Below, one piece after another: positions 27,929-37,951 of a DNA stretch of 44,448 nucleotides. A program made the translations under genes and the position numbers. Each line of letters begins with the position of its first letter. Within the stretch, counting starts at the first letter, position 1. The stretch comes from Acidobacteriota bacterium (lineage in GTDB: Bacteria; Acidobacteriota; Vicinamibacteria; Vicinamibacterales; Fen-181): the NCBI GenBank assembly GCA_017883185.1, contig JADGOB010000018.1, positions 1 through 44,448 on the forward strand. Reading direction: 5' to 3'. The notes under the pieces were generated by a model that saw nothing but the letters and a program-made list of their open reading frames with translations, did no database searches and had not been told where the DNA came from.

Positions 27929-29452
27929 CTACCGTTCGCTGATCACGATGCGTCGACCGTCATACGCCGGGCGAATCGTGCCCTTCTCGCGGATGTACGT
28001 GATGAGCGTCTCCAGGCGCGGCTTGCCCGTATCCTGGACTGCCAGCCCCTTCAGCGCGTAGCCGGCGAAGTACGAGTTGGTGACACCGTTGTACGTCCGG
28101 CTGTCGTCGAGCGGTTGGCCGCCGATGGTGACCTCCACCAGTTCCTTGTTCTGCAGGCGGTAGCGGATGCCCGACACGGCCGGGGAGTAGCGCTGGAGGA
28201 TCTGGCGGATTTCCTTGCCGGTCGCCTTGAACGTGATCACGGTGTTGTTGAACGGGTCGAGCGTCACCAGGTCCCCGCGCGTGATCGCGCCCCGGAGGAG
28301 CGGCGCGCGGATGCCGCCGAGGTTCTCAACCGCGAAGTCGGCGTTGAACGACTCGCGCAGCGCGTCCGACATCAGGTGGTATTCCGCCATGTCGTCGCCG
28401 CGGCTGCTGAATTCGCCGGCGGCCTGCCCGATCACCTCGCCGTAACGGAGAGCAATCGGCTTCCAGAACTGGCCGACGACCGCGGCTATGCCCGGGTCTT
28501 CGGGGATGTCCGGGCTGACGGGAATCAGTTGCGCGCGGTACCGATCCACGTGCCACGCACCCGTCTCGTCCTTGGCGAAGAGCAGGTCCAACCGGCCCAG
28601 TTCTCCGGCCCACTGGTGCGCCTGGACGATGACTGTGCCGTTCACGGACGCCGCCTTGAGTTCCTGCGAGTGCCAGACCAGTTCGCCGGACGGGATGCGG
28701 CTGTGCGAATGACCGCCCACGATCACGTCGATCTCGGGGACCTCGACGGCGATCCGCTGGTCCATGTCCTCGCCGGCGTGCGAGAGCAGGACGATGATGT
28801 CGACCTGCGTCCGCAGCGTGGCCACCGTCTGCCTGGCGGCCGGGATTTCGTCCGTGACGTCGAACGTCTCTTTTCCGGCAGGGTAGGTGGCCGCTTCCTT
28901 CGTCATCAGGCCGAACACGCCCACCCGAACTCCGCCGACCTTGCGGATGACGTAGGGCAACACCATCGGCTTCGACGTGGTGCGATCGGTGACGTTCGCG
29001 CAGACCAGCTCGTACTTGGTCATCGCGATCAGTTTCCGCACCTGCGCCGCCGTGTTGTTGAACTCGTGGTTGCCAAGCGTGCCCATGTCGTAGCCCACGG
29101 CGTTCATGGCTGCCACGTCGGCTTCGCCGTGGTACTCGATCGAGAACGGCGTGCCGTCCGAGTAGTCCCCGATATCGACCAGCCACGTGGGCACGGCCCG
29201 CTTGTCGAGTTCCTGCCGGATGTGCTTGATGAGCGTGGCCCGGCGGGCGATCCCCCCGATGTCCTTGTAGACGCGAAGCCCCTGCAGTTCCCGGCCCGAT
29301 GCGGCGGAATCGGGATAGCTGAACGGGAGCATGTGACCGTGCGTGTCGTTCGTGTGGAGAATGGTCAGCGACGCGGTCTGTGCGGCTGCGAACGGAGCCG
29401 CCGCCAGCAGCGAAACGGCGATGGCCATGAACAGACAGTTGAGCTTTCTCAC
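27929..29452 (-). CDS. Exported 5'-nucleotidase/UDP-sugar hydrolase family metallophosphatase
   Basis: This periplasmic enzyme should remove phosphate from nucleotides or related esters for salvage. It has 507 residues from GTG 29452, chosen because GAAGGA is seven bases upstream and the extra residues (MRKLNCLF) complete a signal peptide (MAIAVSLLAAAPFAAAQ). ATG 29428 is the alternative. The metallophosphoesterase motifs are LHTNDTHGH (D36, H38), DIGDYSDG, GNHEFNN and VGGHSHSRI. The 5'-nucleotidase C-terminal domain follows (about 320-500: GGIRAPLLRGAITRGDLVTL, FNNTVI). It is 38 bases from the POT gene on the same strand, possibly one transcript, and divergent from the aldehyde dehydrogenase. 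Confidence 0.93.
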   Translation of the reverse strand: MRKLNCLFMAIAVSLLAAAPFAAAQTASLTILHTNDTHGHMLPFSYPDSAASGRELQGLRVYKDIGGIARRATLIKHIRQELDKRAVPTWLVDIGDYSDGTPFSIEYHGEADVAAMNAVGYDMGTLGNHEFNNTAAQVRKLIAMTKYELVCANVTDRTTSKPMVLPYVIRKVGGVRVGVFGLMTKEAATYPAGKETFDVTDEIPAARQTVATLRTQVDIIVLLSHAGEDMDQRIAVEVPEIDVIVGGHSHSRIPSGELVWHSQELKAASVNGTVIVQAHQWAGELGRLDLLFAKDETGAWHVDRYRAQLIPVSPDIPEDPGIAAVVGQFWKPIALRYGEVIGQAAGEFSSRGDDMAEYHLMSDALRESFNADFAVENLGGIRAPLLRGAITRGDLVTLDPFNNTVITFKATGKEIRQILQRYSPAVSGIRYRLQNKELVEVTIGGQPLDDSRTYNGVTNSYFAGYALKGLAVQDTGKPRLETLITYIREKGTIRPAYDGRRIVISER

Positions 29453-29640
29453 GCAGGTGTCCTTCGGTGCAGCCGTCCACGGACGGCGGTGATTGGGGCG
29501 CGACCACAGAATCCTAGCGCAGGAGCCGGGGAATGGAAAATAAAGAAATGACTCCCGATCCCGGTTCCACTGGTTTACGCTAGCCCGGACCTGGGCCGCA
29601 TCCCTGGCCCATACGTTCATCCTACACCGGGGAGGCTGCG

Positions 29641-31119
29641 GTGAACCGGCACTTCATCGACAACGCATTTGTCACCGGCCAGCCGGCCGGCGAGATCGTA
29701 GTCCAGAACCCCGCGACCGAGGAGACGCTGGACTGCGTCCCGCTCGGCAGCGCCGCGGACGTCGGCCGGGCCGTGGCTGCCGCACAGGCCGCATTTCCAG
29801 CCTGGAAGCGGATGCCGGCCGTAGAACGCGCGAACCTGCTCCACGATGTCGCGCGCGCCATCAAGGCCGACGGGGAACACCTCACCCGGCTGCTCACGCT
29901 CGAAGAGGGGAAGCCGCTCACCGAAAACGAGGAGGAGATCACCTGGACGTGGTCCACCTTCGACTACTACGCCGAACTCGGGCGGAACGGCCGCGGCCGC
30001 GTCCTGCCGTCGCCCGAAGATGGCCAGCTCTCGCTCGTCCTCAAGGAACCCTACGGCGTAGTCGGCTGCATCGTCCCGTGGAACTACCCGCTGCTCCTGC
30101 TGGCATGGAAGGTGGCCCCAGCGTTGGCGGCCGGCAATACCGTGGTCATCAAGCCAAGCGAGATGACGCCGCTGGCCACGCTGCGGCTGTGCAAGACGGC
30201 CTTTTCCTGCCTGCCGCCCGGCGTGGTCAACGTTGTGACGGGGGACGGGACGACCGGCGCGGCGTTGGTTTCCCATCCCGGCGTGCCGATGGTGGCCTTC
30301 ACCGGGTCGCTGGCGACGGGGCAGGCAATTGCCGCGGCGGCCGGTCCGATGATGAAGCGGACGCACCTGGAGCTCGGCGGCAAGGACGCGTTCGTGATTG
30401 CGGAGGATGCGGATCCCGAGATCGCGGCGAGAGCGATTGCCTACGCGGCGCTCATCAACGCCGGACAGGTGTGCACCAGCACCGAGCGGGTCTACCTCCC
30501 GCGCGCTCGCGCGCCACAGTTCACCGACGCGATCGTCGATCTCGTCCGCTCGCTTCGCCTTGGCAACGGCCTCGACGCGGGCACCGACATCGGGCCGATG
30601 ATCGGGCCGCGCTATCGCGCGAAGGTCATCGACCACATCCAGGACGCCGTGCAGCGCGGTGCCCGGGTCCTGACAGGGGGGCGTGTGCCCTCCGGCCCGG
30701 GGTTCTTCCATGAACCGACTGTCCTGGTCGGCGTCGATCACTCGATGAAGATCATGACCGAGGAGACGTTCGGCCCGGCCATCCCGATCATGGCCTACGA
30801 CACGTTCGACGAAGCCGTGGCGCTCGCCAACGACAGCATGTTCGGCCTCGGCGCGTGCCTGTGGACGAGCGACCCGCGCAAGGCCCGCCTGTTCTTCGAA
30901 GAGGTGAAGGCGGGCACGATCTGGATCAACGATCCGCTCACCGACAACTACGCCGGCCCGTTCGGCGGGATGAAATACTCGGGCGGTGGCCGCGAGCTTG
31001 GCGAAGAAGGCCTGGAGGCCTTCCGCGAGACCAAGCACGTCCACTGGGACATCGAAGCGCGGCCGAAAGGGTGGTGGCTGCCGTACTCGCCTTGTTCCAT
31101 CAGTCGTGAGGTAAAATAA
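29641..31119 (+). CDS. NAD(P)-dependent aldehyde dehydrogenase
   Basis: This is a cytoplasmic oxidoreductase of the ALDH superfamily (492 residues) that converts an aldehyde to its acid. The start is GTG 29641, with GGGGAGG upstream. Conserved residues are visible: VPWNYPLLLLAWK (catalytic Asn region), KPSEMTP (cofactor binding), FTGSLATG, LELGGKDAF (E244) and NAGQVCTSTE (C278, the nucleophile). The closest types are betaine- or lactaldehyde-like ALDHs; the substrate cannot be fixed. It is 42 bases upstream of the giant carboxylase on the same strand, so the two are probably co-transcribed. Confidence 0.93.
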   Translation: MNRHFIDNAFVTGQPAGEIVVQNPATEETLDCVPLGSAADVGRAVAAAQAAFPAWKRMPAVERANLLHDVARAIKADGEHLTRLLTLEEGKPLTENEEEITWTWSTFDYYAELGRNGRGRVLPSPEDGQLSLVLKEPYGVVGCIVPWNYPLLLLAWKVAPALAAGNTVVIKPSEMTPLATLRLCKTAFSCLPPGVVNVVTGDGTTGAALVSHPGVPMVAFTGSLATGQAIAAAAGPMMKRTHLELGGKDAFVIAEDADPEIAARAIAYAALINAGQVCTSTERVYLPRARAPQFTDAIVDLVRSLRLGNGLDAGTDIGPMIGPRYRAKVIDHIQDAVQRGARVLTGGRVPSGPGFFHEPTVLVGVDHSMKIMTEETFGPAIPIMAYDTFDEAVALANDSMFGLGACLWTSDPRKARLFFEEVKAGTIWINDPLTDNYAGPFGGMKYSGGGRELGEEGLEAFRETKHVHWDIEARPKGWWLPYSPCSISREVK

Positions 31120-31161: not shown

Positions 31162-34100
31162 ATGATGTCCGCAGACTTCCAGCGCGTAGCCATCGTCAAC
31201 CGCGGCGAGCCGGCGATGCGCGTGGTCCATGCCATTCGCGAATTCAACCTGGAACGCTCCACAGGGATCAGCACCATCGCGCTCTTCACCGAACCGGATC
31301 GTCGGTCGCGCTTCGTGCGCGAGGCTGACGAATCGTACAGCCTCGGTCCGGCGACCTTCGTGGATGATGCGGACGGGCAACGGAAGCCGACCTACTTGAA
31401 TTACGACCGGCTGGAGCAGGCGCTGGTGGCGGTCCAGGCCGATGCGGTCTGGGTCGGGTGGGGGTTCGTGGCCGAACGCGCCGACTTCATCGAGCTGTGC
31501 GACCGGATCGGGGTCACCTTCATTGGCCCGACCAGCCACGCGATTCGACGGCTGGGGGACAAGATCTCCGCGAAGCGGCTGGCCGAACAGGCGGGCCTCC
31601 GCGTGACGCCGTGGGGAGGCGAGGCCGCGGCCACGCTGGACGTCGCGTGGGTGCACGCCCAGCGTCTGGGCTACCCGGTCGTGGTGAAGGCGTCCGCGGG
31701 GGCGGGTGGCCGGGGCATCCGGCGCGCGTGGAGCGAATCGGAACTGGCGGCGGCCTTCGACAGCGCCCGGCGCGAGGCGGGGCGGACGTTCGGTGACGCC
31801 ACCGTGTACGTGGAACGCTGGCTCGAAGGCGTCCGCCACGTCGAAGTCCAGATCCAGGGCGATCACCACGGCGCGATGTGGGCGCTCGGCGTCCGCGATT
31901 GCACGATCCAGCGACGATTTCAGAAACTGCTGGCCGAAGCGCCGTCGCCCGCCCTGCTGGCCGGCGAAGAGCAGGCGCTGAAAGAGGCGGCCATTCGCCT
32001 GTGCCGGGCGGCCGACTACCAGGACGCGGCCACCGTCGAGTTCCTGTTCGACCCTTCCACGCGCCAGTTCTCCCTGATGGAGGTCAACCCGCGCCTCCAG
32101 GTCGAGCACCCGGTCACCGAGCTCACCACCGGCGTTGACCTGGTGAAGCTGTCGCTGCACGTGGCGCGCGGCGGGCGGCTCGAGGGCGAGCCGCCAGTGA
32201 CGACGGGCCATGCCATCGAGGTGCGGTTGAACGCGGAGAACGTGGACGCCGGGTTCTCCGCGGCTCCGGGCGAGATCGAGCTGTTGCGCCTGCCGACTGG
32301 GCCGGGCCTCCGCGTGGACTCGGGCGTCGCCGAGGGCGACCTCATCCCACCCGAATTCGGCTCGATGTTCGCGAAGCTGTCGGCCCTGGGACACACGCGC
32401 GAGGAGGCGCTGGGCCGCCTGAAGCGGGCCCTGGCCGAAAGCGCCATCGTGGTGAAAGGCGGGACGACGAATCGGACGTTCCTGTTGCAACTGCTCGACC
32501 GCGACGAAGTGCGGGCCGGGCGGGTGGACGTCGGCTGGCTCGATCGATCGAGCCAGCGGCCGGTGATCGGCCCCGGCGACCACGCGGGGATCGCGCTCCT
32601 CCAGGCGGCCATCGAAGTGTACGGCGCGGAATCGGAAGCGGAACTCGAGGAGTTCTTCTCGTCGTCCGCCCGCATGAAGCCGACGTGCCGGCCCGACGTG
32701 GGGCGCCAGGTGGAGATCGGCTACCTGGGCCACCGTTACCAGTTCAAGGTGTATCGCCAGGGACTGCAGGAATACCGGATCGACGTGGCCGGCACGCGCA
32801 TCGACCTGAGCGTGGAGCGGCTCGGGCCGTGCGAGCGGTGGACGACTCACGGCGAGCATCGTTACCGCGTGCTGTCGCTCGTTCAGGGCTACACGCACCT
32901 GATCGAGGTTGACGGCGTCCAGCATCGCATCTCCCGGGCCGACGCCGGCATCGTCCGCGCGCCAGGCCCGGCGATGGTCGTTGGCGTCAACGTGAAGGCG
33001 GGCGACCACGTCTCGGCGGGGGACCGCCTCGCCGTCCTCGAGTCGATGAAGATGGAACTGGCCGTCACCGCGCCGTTCTCGGGCACGATCCGCCAGGTCA
33101 TGGTGATGGCGAACGCCCAGGTGGGTGCTGGCACGCCATTGCTGCACGTCGACGCCGCGCGCGACGAGAGCGGCGACGAGGAAGGCGTTCGCGTCGCGTT
33201 CGAGGGGATCTCGCTGTTGAAGCAGCGCCCCGAGCGCCGCGTGTCCCGGACCCGCGCGATCCTCGAGGGCGTGAAGGCCGGCTTCGGCGAGCTGAAGCGG
33301 GGTCCCGGGCACCGCGCGCCGGTGCTGCTCCTCACCCTCCGACGCCTGATGCTCGGGTTCGATGTCGATCCCGTGGAGTCGAAGCGTCTCGTCAGCGAGT
33401 ACGTGCGCGCGTCCCAGGCGCTCGAGGAGGGGGACCCGGAACGGCGACGCGCAGAAGACGACCTGCTGCGCATCTTCGCGGACGTCTCGGCGGTGTTTGG
33501 GCGCCACGCGGCGCCGGAGGGCAGCGACGCGGACGGGACGCTCAGCGCGGAAGAATACCTCTTCACGTACCTCCGGACGCTGGAGGCCAGGGGCGGCGAT
33601 CTGCCGCGCGCATTCCTCGACAAGCTGCAGCGCGCCCTGGCTCACTACGGCGTGGACACGCTCGAGCCGACCTCAGCCCTGCGCGAAAGCCTGCTGTGGA
33701 TGTTCAAGTCCCACCGCCGGGTGGACCAGCAGGTGGACGCCGTCGCGGCGGTGCTCGAGCAGCGCCTGGTCCGCGACGACACGGCGGACGTCCCCGGCTT
33801 TCTCGCCCTGCTCGACCGGCTGATTGCCGTGTCACGACATCGTTACCCTGGCGTCTGCGACGTGGCGCGCGACGTGCGCTATCGGGCGTTCGACCGTCCC
33901 GCCTTCGAGCAGTTGCGACGGTCCGTCTACGCGACGATGGAGGCGCACCTGGCGACGCTCGCTCGCGACCCGTACGGTGCGGACCGCCGGGCGCGGATCG
34001 CGGCGCTCGTGGAGTGCCCGCAGCCGCTGAAGGAGCTGTTCGCACCCCGCTTCGACCAGGCCACGCCGGTCGTGCGCGAGGTCATGCTCGAAGTGCTGAC

Positions 34101-36810
34101 TCGTCGCTTCTACCGAATCCGCGACCTCGGCTCGTTCATGGGGCTCGAGTCGGGTGATCGGACCCTGGGACTCACCGACTACGCGCTGGACGGACGTCGA
34201 ATCCACATCATTGCCGCCCACACCAACGCACCGGACTCGAGGCGGGCGCTCGAGACGATCCAGCAGGTGTCGCAGTCGATCCCGGCCGGGCACGAGATCG
34301 TCGTGGACCTCTACGTGTGGGCGCGCAGCGTCCTGAACGACCCGGATGCCGCCTCCGACGAACTCCGCCTGCTGCTCGACCAGGCGGGCTTCGAGCGCCC
34401 GGTCAGCCGCGTGGTGATCATGGTGTCGGGGCCAGGCGTCGCCGCGACCACCGGGCAGACGCAGTGCCTGACGTTTCGTTCGGGTCCGGCCGGGTTCCGC
34501 GAGCAGAAGCTGTATCGCGGCATGCACCCGATGATGGCCAAGCGGCTCGAGTTGTGGCGGCTGTGCAACTTCTACGTGAACCGGCTGCCGTCGGTCGAGG
34601 ACGTCTACCTGTTCCACGGCGTGGCGCGAGACAACCCGAAGGACGAGCGGCTGTTCGCGTTGGCGGAAGTGCGCGACGTCACGGCGATCCGGGACGGCAG
34701 CGGCGGCCTCGTGCAGGTGCCACACCTCGAGCGGATGCTGATGGAGGCGCTCACGGCCATTCGCCAGGAACAGCTGCGCCGCCCGCCAGGAAGCCGGTTG
34801 CAGTGGAACCGCGTGCTGCTGTACGTCCGTCCGACGCTGGCCCTCACGAAGGAAGAGCTCGAAGGGATCGCGCGGCGGATGGGCACCGAGGCCGAGGGAC
34901 TTGGGCTGCAGAAGGTGGTGGTGCGGGCGAGCATCCCGGACGAGAACGGCGTGCCGCGTGACACGGTGCTCCGCGTGGCGGTCGCGGCTGGCCAGGCGTT
35001 GGCGCTCCAGTTCAGCCCGGCGTCGGCCGAGCCGATCCGCCCGCTGACCGAGTACGCGCAGAAGGTCGTGCGCATGCGCCAGCGCGGGCTGACGTATCCG
35101 TACGAGCTCATTCGCATGCTGACGCCCGCCCGCGAGGCGATGCAGGCCGACCTGCCGCCTGGCGAGTTCGTCGAGCACGATCTCGGCCCCGACGGTCAAC
35201 TCGTTCCGGTCGATCGCCCCTACGGTCATAACACGGCAAACGTCGTGGTCGGGCTGATCAAGAACGTCACCGACAAGTACCCGGAAGGGATGACCCGCGT
35301 GATCATCCTGGGCGACCCGAGCAAGGAAGTGGGCTCGCTGGCCGAGCCCGAGTGCGCGCGGATCCTGGCGGCGCTCGACCTGGCCGAGCGGATGCGCGTC
35401 CCGCTCGAGTGGTTCGCGCTCTCCGCCGGCGCGAAGATCTCGATGGAGAGCGGCACCGAGAACATGGACTGGATTGCGCAGGTGCTGCGCCGGCTCATCG
35501 AGTTCACCCAGGCAGGCCACGAGATCAACATTATCGTCATCGGCATCAACGTCGGCGGCCAGCCGTACTGGAACGCCGAGGCGACGATGCTGATGCACAC
35601 CCGCGGGATCCTGATCATGACCCCCGAGGGCGCGATGGTGCTGACGGGGAAGACCGCGCTCGACTATTCCGGGTCGGTCTCGGCCGAAGACAACCAGGGC
35701 ATTGGCGGCTACGAGCACATCATGGGGCCGAATGGCGAAGCCCAATACTGGGCGCGCGACCTCGGCGAGGCCTGCCAGACCCTGCTGCGGCACTACGATC
35801 ACACGTATGTCGTGCCGGGTGAGCGGTTCCCGCGGCGCGCGGTCACGCGCGATCCGATCGCCCGCGACGTCCGGGTCTTCCCGCACGGCGACGTGCAGGG
35901 GACCGGGTTCGAGCTGGTCGGCGACGTCTTCTCGGACGAGAAGAACCCCGGACGCAAGAAGCCGTTCGACATCCGCAAGGTGATGCGCGCGGTCAGCGAT
36001 CAGGACCACGAGCCGCTCGAACGGTGGTCGCACATGCGAGACGCCGAGAATGCGGTGACCTGGGACGCCCACGTCGGCGGCTACCCGGTCGCGATGCTCG
36101 GATTCGAGTCGCGCGCCGTGCCGCGCGTCGGCATGGTGCCGCCTGACGGCCCTGAGCAATTCACGTCGGGGACGTTGTTCCCGATGGCGTCGAAGAAGGT
36201 GGCTCGCTTCATCAACGCCGCCAGCGCAGTGCGCCCGCTCGTCATCCTCGCCAACCTGTCCGGGTTCGACGGATCGCCCGAGTCGATGCGCCGGCGCCAG
36301 CTCGAGTGGGGCGCCGAGATCGGCCGCGCGGTCGTCAACTTCAAGGGGCCGATCGTGTTCGTCGTGATCTCGCGGTATCACGGCGGCGCGTTCGTCGTGT
36401 TCTCGAAGGCGTTGAACGAGAATATGGAGGTGGTGGCGCTCGAGGGGACGTTCGCGTCGGTCATCGGCGGCGCCCCCGCCGCCGCGGTCGTCTTTGCGCG
36501 GGAAGTGGATGCCCGGACCCGGAAAGACCCGCGGGTGCAGAGCATCCAGAAGGAACTGGACCAGGCGTCGGACGCGGGCAAGGCGGCTCTGCGAGCGAAG
36601 CTCTTGGAGGTGACGCGGAGCGTCCGTTCAGAGAAGTTGGGCCAGGTGGCTGACGAATTCGACCGGATTCACAGCGTGCACCGGGCGCTTCAGGTCGGGT
36701 CGCTCGATCGGATCATTCGGGCGTCCGACCTTCGCCCCTACGTGGTGGACGCCCTCGAGCGCCTGATGGCCAGAGATATCCAGCGGGCCGCCGGCGCGCT
36801 GGGCGTGTAG
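31162..36810 (+). CDS. Single-chain biotin-dependent acyl-CoA carboxylase with eukaryotic ACC-like domain order
   Basis: This 1882-residue enzyme carries all parts of an acyl-CoA carboxylase on one chain. Residues about 1-480 are biotin carboxylase (VAIVNRGEPAMRVVHAIREF, KASAGAGGRGIRRAW, EVNPRLQVEHPVTELTTG). The biotinyl domain has ESMKMEL with the attachment site K630. Residues about 690-1260 are a long central region whose end (LFHGVARDNPKDERLFALAE, HLERMLMEALTAI) resembles the central domain of eukaryotic ACC. The carboxyltransferase follows (about 1300-1850: YGHNTANVVVGLIKNVT, MVLTGKTALDYSGSVSAEDN, GIGGYEHIMGPNGEAQYWAR, ILANLSGFDGSPESM). GAGGT precedes two ATGs (31162/31165). Acetyl-CoA or propionyl-CoA are the likely substrates. 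meaB converges from the other strand 58 bases away. Confidence 0.93.
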   Translation: MMSADFQRVAIVNRGEPAMRVVHAIREFNLERSTGISTIALFTEPDRRSRFVREADESYSLGPATFVDDADGQRKPTYLNYDRLEQALVAVQADAVWVGWGFVAERADFIELCDRIGVTFIGPTSHAIRRLGDKISAKRLAEQAGLRVTPWGGEAAATLDVAWVHAQRLGYPVVVKASAGAGGRGIRRAWSESELAAAFDSARREAGRTFGDATVYVERWLEGVRHVEVQIQGDHHGAMWALGVRDCTIQRRFQKLLAEAPSPALLAGEEQALKEAAIRLCRAADYQDAATVEFLFDPSTRQFSLMEVNPRLQVEHPVTELTTGVDLVKLSLHVARGGRLEGEPPVTTGHAIEVRLNAENVDAGFSAAPGEIELLRLPTGPGLRVDSGVAEGDLIPPEFGSMFAKLSALGHTREEALGRLKRALAESAIVVKGGTTNRTFLLQLLDRDEVRAGRVDVGWLDRSSQRPVIGPGDHAGIALLQAAIEVYGAESEAELEEFFSSSARMKPTCRPDVGRQVEIGYLGHRYQFKVYRQGLQEYRIDVAGTRIDLSVERLGPCERWTTHGEHRYRVLSLVQGYTHLIEVDGVQHRISRADAGIVRAPGPAMVVGVNVKAGDHVSAGDRLAVLESMKMELAVTAPFSGTIRQVMVMANAQVGAGTPLLHVDAARDESGDEEGVRVAFEGISLLKQRPERRVSRTRAILEGVKAGFGELKRGPGHRAPVLLLTLRRLMLGFDVDPVESKRLVSEYVRASQALEEGDPERRRAEDDLLRIFADVSAVFGRHAAPEGSDADGTLSAEEYLFTYLRTLEARGGDLPRAFLDKLQRALAHYGVDTLEPTSALRESLLWMFKSHRRVDQQVDAVAAVLEQRLVRDDTADVPGFLALLDRLIAVSRHRYPGVCDVARDVRYRAFDRPAFEQLRRSVYATMEAHLATLARDPYGADRRARIAALVECPQPLKELFAPRFDQATPVVREVMLEVLTRRFYRIRDLGSFMGLESGDRTLGLTDYALDGRRIHIIAAHTNAPDSRRALETIQQVSQSIPAGHEIVVDLYVWARSVLNDPDAASDELRLLLDQAGFERPVSRVVIMVSGPGVAATTGQTQCLTFRSGPAGFREQKLYRGMHPMMAKRLELWRLCNFYVNRLPSVEDVYLFHGVARDNPKDERLFALAEVRDVTAIRDGSGGLVQVPHLERMLMEALTAIRQEQLRRPPGSRLQWNRVLLYVRPTLALTKEELEGIARRMGTEAEGLGLQKVVVRASIPDENGVPRDTVLRVAVAAGQALALQFSPASAEPIRPLTEYAQKVVRMRQRGLTYPYELIRMLTPAREAMQADLPPGEFVEHDLGPDGQLVPVDRPYGHNTANVVVGLIKNVTDKYPEGMTRVIILGDPSKEVGSLAEPECARILAALDLAERMRVPLEWFALSAGAKISMESGTENMDWIAQVLRRLIEFTQAGHEINIIVIGINVGGQPYWNAEATMLMHTRGILIMTPEGAMVLTGKTALDYSGSVSAEDNQGIGGYEHIMGPNGEAQYWARDLGEACQTLLRHYDHTYVVPGERFPRRAVTRDPIARDVRVFPHGDVQGTGFELVGDVFSDEKNPGRKKPFDIRKVMRAVSDQDHEPLERWSHMRDAENAVTWDAHVGGYPVAMLGFESRAVPRVGMVPPDGPEQFTSGTLFPMASKKVARFINAASAVRPLVILANLSGFDGSPESMRRRQLEWGAEIGRAVVNFKGPIVFVVISRYHGGAFVVFSKALNENMEVVALEGTFASVIGGAPAAAVVFAREVDARTRKDPRVQSIQKELDQASDAGKAALRAKLLEVTRSVRSEKLGQVADEFDRIHSVHRALQVGSLDRIIRASDLRPYVVDALERLMARDIQRAAGALGV

Positions 36811-36868: not shown

Positions 36869-37951
36869 CTAGCCGCGCGGTCGTGTCCGAGCGACCGTTT
36901 CGTCCAGGAGCCGCGTCGCGGCCTCGTCCACCGACACGGTACCTGACAGCACCTCGGAGGCCATCCCGCCGCTTGCCCGCTGGCTCTGCAGCGTGTCTCT
37001 CAGGCGACGCGTGGCTTCCTCGATGACCGCCTCCCGCACTTCCTGCTCGATCGAGTCCAAGCGCTGCGCCTGCCACCGCGGGCTGAACTCCGACCCGAGC
37101 GCCTCGAGGTCGTCCACCAATTCCTTCACGCCCTGCCCCTGCCCGCCGCTGACCAGGAAGGTCCGCGGTTCGATGAGCGTGCCCGGCCGCCGGGACAGCC
37201 ACGGCGCGAGGTCACCGGCCGTCTCGTCCTCGACGACGGGGGCGTGGTGGCCGCTCAGGTCCTCGCGCGCCACGCGCAACATCGCGAGCAGCTCGCCGTG
37301 CAGCCTGGCCGCGTCAGGCCGGTCGGCCTTGTTGACGACGAACAGGTCGCCGATTTCCATCAGCCCCGCCTTCAGGAGCTGGATGCTGTCGCCGAGGCCG
37401 GGAGCGAGCACGATCATCACGAGGTCGGCCACTCCTGCCACCTCCACCTCGCTCTGGCCAACGCCGACGGTCTCGACAAAGACGACGTCGCACCCGATGA
37501 GGCCCATGATCCGGATGACGCCCTTGACCCCGAGCGCGAGCCCCCCGAGGTGCCCGCGGGACGCCATCGACCGGACGAACACCATCGGATCGGTGGCGTG
37601 GCGCATCATGCGCACGCGGTCGCCCAGGACCGCGCCGCCCGTGAAGGGGGAGGAGGGGTCCACGGCGACGACGCCAAGTCGCCGGTCCGGATGGCGGCGG
37701 CGGTAGTCCCGGATGAGGGCGTCGGTCAGCGTGCTCTTGCCTGAGCCCGGTGCGCCGGTGATGCCGATCAGGAGCCGCGGCAGCGTGAGGCGGCGTGAAT
37801 CGCCGGCCTCGAGACCGGCTGCGGCCTGGAACACTTCGGGCAGCCGGTGGGGCTCGTCGGAGAGGATCGACATCAGCCGGGCGGCGGGGCGGATGGCGCC
37901 GGGACCCTCAGCCGCGGCGGCGCGAACGAGAGTGGAAATGGTGGTAGACAT
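36869..37951 (-). CDS. meaB: MeaB/ArgK G-protein chaperone of methylmalonyl-CoA mutase
   Basis: This G3E-family GTPase (360 residues) gates loading and protects the adenosylcobalamin-dependent methylmalonyl-CoA mutase. The P-loop is GITGAPGSGKST (63-74). Then come VVAVDPSSPFTGGAVLGDRV and RMMRHATDPMVFVRSMASRG, which are typical of MeaB. DVVFVETVGVGQSEVEV is switch II and VVNKAD is the guanine-specificity motif. The C-terminal helical dimerisation region is present. The mutase itself is not in the window. The carboxylase next door would make methylmalonyl-CoA if it accepts propionyl-CoA. A strong ribosome site is not obvious before ATG 37951. Confidence 0.93.
   Translation of the reverse strand: MSTTISTLVRAAAAEGPGAIRPAARLMSILSDEPHRLPEVFQAAAGLEAGDSRRLTLPRLLIGITGAPGSGKSTLTDALIRDYRRRHPDRRLGVVAVDPSSPFTGGAVLGDRVRMMRHATDPMVFVRSMASRGHLGGLALGVKGVIRIMGLIGCDVVFVETVGVGQSEVEVAGVADLVMIVLAPGLGDSIQLLKAGLMEIGDLFVVNKADRPDAARLHGELLAMLRVAREDLSGHHAPVVEDETAGDLAPWLSRRPGTLIEPRTFLVSGGQGQGVKELVDDLEALGSEFSPRWQAQRLDSIEQEVREAVIEEATRRLRDTLQSQRASGGMASEVLSGTVSVDEAATRLLDETVARTRPRG

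Follow-up and report, generated by a model that had tools for sequence, protein, structure and literature searches.

The stretch of DNA analysed here, 44,448 nucleotides from an Acidobacteriota bacterium that we call the window, encodes a protein of 1882 amino acids that is very probably an acidobacterial carboxylase of the SACE_4237 type, one that would work by an ACC-like mechanism and probably in an auxiliary role. The protein adds to a family that is rare but already known, its first description, from actinobacteria, dating from 2019. Its central domain, as judged from a sequence profile and a predicted fold, is a true homologue of the central domain of eukaryotic ACC.

Reading frame and domain order

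The gene, its domains and its neighbours are placed in the window as follows.

27929..29620, minus strand: 5'-nucleotidase-like phosphoesterase, a neighbour conserved in the genus
29641..31119, plus strand: aldehyde dehydrogenase, ending 42 bp upstream of the carboxylase
31162..36810, plus strand: single-chain acyl-CoA carboxylase, ATG start, 1882 aa, BC-BT-BCCP-CD-CT (reading frame, Pfam, full-length profile)
31177..32553, plus strand: biotin carboxylase (BC) domain, residues 6-464 (Pfam, catalytic-residue alignment)
32554..32946, plus strand: BC-BCCP linker, residues ~465-595 (profile alignment with the BT region of human and yeast ACC)
32965..33144, plus strand: biotinyl (BCCP) domain, residues 602-661 (Pfam Biotin_lipoyl)
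33049..33051, plus strand: codon of the biotin-accepting Lys630, in ESMKM (alignment)
33250..35043, plus strand: ACC central domain (CD), residues ~697-1294 (profile, model, fold search)
34399..34977, plus strand: Pfam ACC_central match, residues 1080-1272
35284..36780, plus strand: carboxyltransferase (CT), Pfam match at residues 1375-1873, domain start ~1335
36869..37951, minus strand: MeaB-like GTPase, a neighbour in convergent orientation that other genomes of the genus also have next to the carboxylase

The original prediction of one uninterrupted frame of 1882 codons holds: the frame 31162-36810 on the plus strand has no internal stop. Frames of comparable length, with 44-98% identity, are found in more than 20 contigs, and those of the same genus (80-98% identity) show no interrupting stop over the compared length; the frame is thus not a product of chance. 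In two MAG contigs, L021 (7740-12222) and L068 (6956-12523), the carboxylase frame seems to be split or shifted, by either assembly error or decay.

The prediction also placed BC, a biotinyl domain with its lysine at 630, a central region and CT on this single chain, and the Pfam matches fall in that order: BC (Biotin_carb_N 6-128, CPSase_L_D2 133-341, Biotin_carb_C 353-461), Biotin_lipoyl 602-661, ACC_central (PF08326) 1080-1272, with an E-value of 1.4e-16 and a score of 60.4 bits (cut-off 23.2), and Carboxyl_trans 1375-1873. The biotin lysine, Lys630, is invariant across all rows compared, and the motif LFHGVARDNPKDERLFALAE, at about residues 1150-1169, is conserved inside the ACC_central match. 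When the full-length family profile is searched against the PDB, yeast and human ACC rank first, in segments that run from BC through CT; its alignment to the human ACC1 chain 8xkz is continuous over the linker.

The central domain

In 2016, the CD of ACC was said to be without homologues in other proteins (PMC4833862), and bacterial homologues were described afterwards (PMC6491548). We built a CD profile from residues 664-1372 of eight sequences and searched it against the PDB: it matches eleven distinct sequences at E < 0.01, and 11 of 11 are eukaryotic ACCs. ACC_central itself matches in none of 14 control genomes.

The AlphaFold model of the CD (mean pLDDT 66.7) has a helical part at ~696-935, a short helical linker at ~942-984, and two alpha-beta domains at ~993-1114 and ~1164-1286 that resemble each other, like CDC1 and CDC2. 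The model thus presents the order CDN, CDL, CDC1, CDC2 of the yeast enzyme (PMC4833862). With this model, the top 29 Foldseek matches are ACC, the best with an E-value of 6.2e-19, and structural alignment gives Z scores of 18-22 over ~490 residues against whole-CD ACC chains, human and yeast, versus 7.4 for the best non-ACC chain. Sequence identity to eukaryotic ACC in this domain is just ~15-17%. Because the profile matches only ACCs and the fold match is so much closer to ACC than to any other chain, we take the two central domains to be homologous.

The resemblance to the eukaryotic central domain had been claimed in the original prediction, which proposed to look for it with an HMM search for the ACC central domain and CT and with a structure comparison to yeast ACC, and which was to be given up if residues ~690-1260 held no ACC central match. 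The HMM search finds both domains, the structure comparison gives the Z scores above, and the match is present, in sequence profile and predicted fold alike.

The Foldseek matches of the CD model also include PDB 9kkm, titled Shewanella acetyl-CoA carboxyltransferase holoenzyme. A Deinococcus single-chain carboxylase is another candidate for comparison.

The bacterial domain is shorter at one place. Profile positions 351-372 span residues 390-459 of the yeast construct, an excess of ~47 residues on the yeast side, and in the CD model a short turn connects strand 337-346 with strand 349-359 in the first alpha-beta domain. The regulatory loop of yeast, with Ser1157, sits between strands 2 and 3 of CDC1 (PMC4833862). 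The missing ~47 residues are probably this phosphorylated loop, and members of the family that seem to do without it could reveal which parts of the CD predate control by phosphorylation.

Active sites and a possible mechanism

Using as catalytic the positions that we take from the residue numbering of E. coli AccC, we find all ten equivalents in the window protein: K116, K159, H209, K238, E276, E288, N290, R292, E296 and R338. In two relatives, L069 and L070, the equivalent of AccC R292 is Trp and BC is otherwise intact. The signatures AVWxGWG and LGDKI...PW are common to the window protein and eukaryotic ACC. Five BC positions (T43, W97, W100, L131 and W151) link bacterial single-chain and eukaryotic ACC against other BCs, while three point the opposite way; at 17 positions, the bacterial single-chain BC agrees with other bacterial BCs and the eukaryotic residue is altered.

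The CT profile reaches yeast ACC CT with an E-value of 2e-26, versus 2e-9 for the best PccB-type chain. The domain is ~540 aa long, and its structure model is of low confidence (mean pLDDT 52.6). The original prediction also raised the possibility that this CT binds drugs differently.

From this anatomy we infer the activity, substrate, homodimeric state and role of the protein. BC would use ATP and bicarbonate to carboxylate the biotin on Lys630; the biotinyl arm would swing the carboxybiotin over to CT; CT would carboxylate a short acyl-CoA, in all likelihood acetyl-CoA, giving malonyl-CoA, and perhaps also propionyl-CoA, giving methylmalonyl-CoA. The central domain would take no part in catalysis and would serve as a scaffold that keeps the BC and CT dimers apart, the role it has in yeast and human ACC.

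Gene neighbourhood in relatives

A PfaA-like synthase (KS, AT, ACP, KR, DH) precedes the carboxylase in the relatives L018, L019, L023, L076, L079 and L080; in the one that was scanned, the top NCBIfam match is PfaA, at a score under the cut-off of that model. A phosphopantetheinyl transferase (PPTase) gene follows the carboxylase in L018, L019, L076 and L080. In Nonomuraea, 4 bp lie between the end of a similar synthase and the start of the carboxylase gene, and the gene order in Tsukamurella is FAS-I, AcpS, carboxylase; no such synthase is annotated beside the carboxylase in Gordonia. With L087 and L089 added to the six loci listed first, carboxylases beside a type I lipid megasynthase are found in three phyla: Acidobacteriota, Pseudomonadota and Actinomycetota. 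This recurrent adjacency suggests that type I lipid megasynthases receive malonyl-CoA from enzymes of this family, the fused enzyme being a dedicated source.

Three carboxylases of PfaA-like clusters have lost BC catalytic residues: L079 (5527-10995, minus strand), L080 (6902-12283, plus strand) and L076 (3493-9240, plus strand). L079 and L080, from two genera of one family, carry a deletion of ~65 residues in the ATP-grasp portion of BC, and most of their catalytic positions are altered; in L076, four are. The biotin lysine, the central domain and CT are conserved in all three, with CT 76% identical between L079 and L080. The genomes of these BC-degenerate relatives have two other BC genes each. 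BC function has probably been lost in L079 and L080, judging by the residues, and their CT may draw on carboxybiotin from a different BC, or may run in reverse. A carboxylase of this kind would be a natural BC-dead ACC of the eukaryotic type.

Role in the window's own lineage

The neighbours of the carboxylase, both in the window and in other members of the genus, are the 5'-nucleotidase and the MeaB-like GTPase, and the synthase is absent from the locus. A PfaA-like partner elsewhere in the genome was considered and rejected: a search with the PS-DH profile (PF14765) found no such megasynthase. The genome holds AccA, AccD and AccC, names inferred from domain matches, together with a PccB/MmdA-like subunit that has its own BC. 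The megasynthase role therefore does not seem to transfer to the window organism. Since its locus has no synthase and its genome has AccA, AccD and AccC, our best guess is that the window carboxylase is probably auxiliary and adds to the supply of malonyl- or methylmalonyl-CoA.

A part in methylmalonyl-CoA metabolism would suit the MeaB neighbour no less well, which raises the alternative that an enzyme of the same family acts here mainly as a propionyl-CoA carboxylase, assisted by MeaB. The genus retains the MeaB-like gene next to the carboxylase, SACE_4237 accepts propionyl-CoA too, and AccA, AccD and AccC are already there. However, the MeaB-like GTPase of the window is a second paralogue with no mutase adjoining; the canonical MeaB adjoins methylmalonyl-CoA mutase on another contig, the genome has its separate PccB/MmdA-like subunit, and relatives from other families have lipid synthases as neighbours instead of MeaB. 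We consider this alternative unlikely, though it is the most serious one, and keep the auxiliary role, with acetyl-CoA as the likeliest substrate, as the preferred reading.

A function deduced from the upstream aldehyde dehydrogenase was also rejected: no homologue of that gene lies beside the carboxylase in any relative examined, including one whose carboxylase is 98% identical. The aldehyde dehydrogenase is therefore probably a late arrival, outside the system. Its position between the 5'-nucleotidase and the carboxylase reflects either recent insertion or differential loss.

Distribution and phylogeny

The carriers of ACC_central number 10 among 396 sampled genomes of Acidobacteriota and 13 among 193 of the class; in the sampled Pseudomonadota, nothing but the centre genome itself scores above the cut-off. 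Two gammaproteobacterial MAGs carry the carboxylase gene. The nearest homologues of the window protein on named contigs are in Acidobacteria MAGs, one of them 98% identical, and a Vicinamibacterales MAG has one at 75%; the host is thus an acidobacterium, and probably one of the Vicinamibacteria. So thin a spread of the gene suggests transfer or repeated loss.

Two trees, of 29 rows for BC and 32 rows for CT, each contain two eukaryotic sequences, yeast and human, and five actinobacterial ones. In the BC tree, all 18 rows of bacterial single-chain enzymes come together, with support 100/100; nine other BCs, namely one MccA from the PDB and AccC-, PccA- and PC-like sequences from the studied genomes, group apart (100/98), and neither group includes yeast or human ACC. 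The CT tree repeats this grouping (98/98 for the bacterial single-chain rows, 100/100), on very long branches. In both, the window protein groups with the actinobacterial multidomain enzymes, SACE_4237 itself not being among the rows.

Such a tree has only three groups, so that its unrooted order is trivial and any sister relation hinges on the root. We favour a root that makes eukaryotic ACC and the bacterial single-chain enzymes sister groups, on account of the shared central domain, the same domain order and the five BC positions. The relevance to the origin of eukaryotic ACC that was first proposed survives in part: eukaryotic ACC stands beside the bacterial group, but it is not nested in it, and whether the two are sisters turns on where the root is placed.

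That bacteria recently acquired an ACC gene from eukaryotes, which the sparse spread over 10 of 396 Acidobacteriota genomes might suggest, is very unlikely: the window protein is not inside eukaryotic ACC, as the bacterial rows, compared with two eukaryotic rows per tree, form their own group with long branches to yeast and human, and their BC retains the 17 bacterial-type positions that eukaryotes have altered. Less credible still is a PccA-PccB fusion peculiar to this lineage, with a linker that merely resembles the ACC central domain, despite a CT near PccB in length and a single-sequence BC search that puts chains of the MccA/PccA type above ACC, because the CD is homologous to ACC only, in sequence and fold, separate PccA/PccB-type genes exist in the same genome, and the phylogeny with eukaryotic ACC for which the original prediction had called, and which could have returned BC and CT as separate PccA/PccB fusions, places BC outside the PccA-type and AccC-type rows and CT outside the PccB-type rows, with eukaryotic ACC adjacent.

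The window protein thus stays with the SACE_4237 type, and with it comes the question of where the fusion arose. A proposal of 2019 placed it in actinobacteria; the acidobacterial and gammaproteobacterial members enlarge the sample that bears on the origin of eukaryotic ACC and make this proposal testable. Our trees do not resolve the branching among the bacterial single-chain rows and thus place the origin of the fusion in neither actinobacteria nor Acidobacteriota. We offer, tentatively and as a joint conjecture with odds rather against it, that eukaryotic ACC came from a bacterial single-chain carboxylase that first fed type I fatty-acid or polyketide megasynthases, that the fusion was not necessarily actinobacterial, and that some members in Acidobacteriota are BC-dead, being decarboxylases or carboxylases dependent on another BC.

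Comparison with known systems

SACE_4237 of Saccharopolyspora erythraea was the first bacterial homodimeric multidomain ACC to be described (Sci Rep 2019, PMC6491548). It is essential, has the central region, and acts on acetyl-CoA and propionyl-CoA with kcat/Km of 0.85 and 0.52 s-1 mM-1, and not on palmitoyl-CoA; its CT groups with eukaryotic ACC with 100% bootstrap, and its orthologues occur in families that include the Streptosporangiaceae (PMC6491548). Nonomuraea belongs to this family, and the actinobacterial homologues in Nonomuraea, Embleya, Tsukamurella and Gordonia are 47-53% identical to the window protein over 93-94% of CD and CT. We conclude from these homologues, and from the published description and list of families rather than from an alignment to SACE_4237, that the two proteins are of the same kind. 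Both carry BC-BCCP-central-CT on one chain of ~200 kDa, with homology to eukaryotic ACC from end to end and a CT that groups with it. The window protein differs in that it belongs to Acidobacteriota, in a genome with several carboxylase systems and with other neighbours, and is an enzyme predicted from sequence. The original prediction of a yeast-type carboxylase in a bacterium is thus borne out by architecture, CD and trees, but it is not the first, SACE_4237 and its orthologues having preceded it.

With the cytosolic ACC of eukaryotes, yeast ACC1 and human ACC1, the protein shares domain order, BT region, the CDN-CDL-CDC1-CDC2 arrangement and the two BC signatures; the eukaryotic chains are longer, ~2,200-2,350 aa against 1882, and include the ~47 extra CD residues seen in the yeast profile alignment. 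LCC is also a single-chain bacterial carboxylase, but its CT is amino-terminal and its BC-BCCP carboxy-terminal, it is a hexamer, and the central domain is absent (PMC6491548). Finally, a 2011 survey reported in Koribacter versatilis a secondary-lipid cluster of Type R with an ACC gene between homologues of pfaA and pfaE (PMC3098273). That carboxylase, described then as part of an ACC complex in one organism (PMC3098273), has a pfaA homologue on one side and a PPTase gene on the other, an arrangement shared with L018, L076 and L080, whereas the window locus has no synthase.
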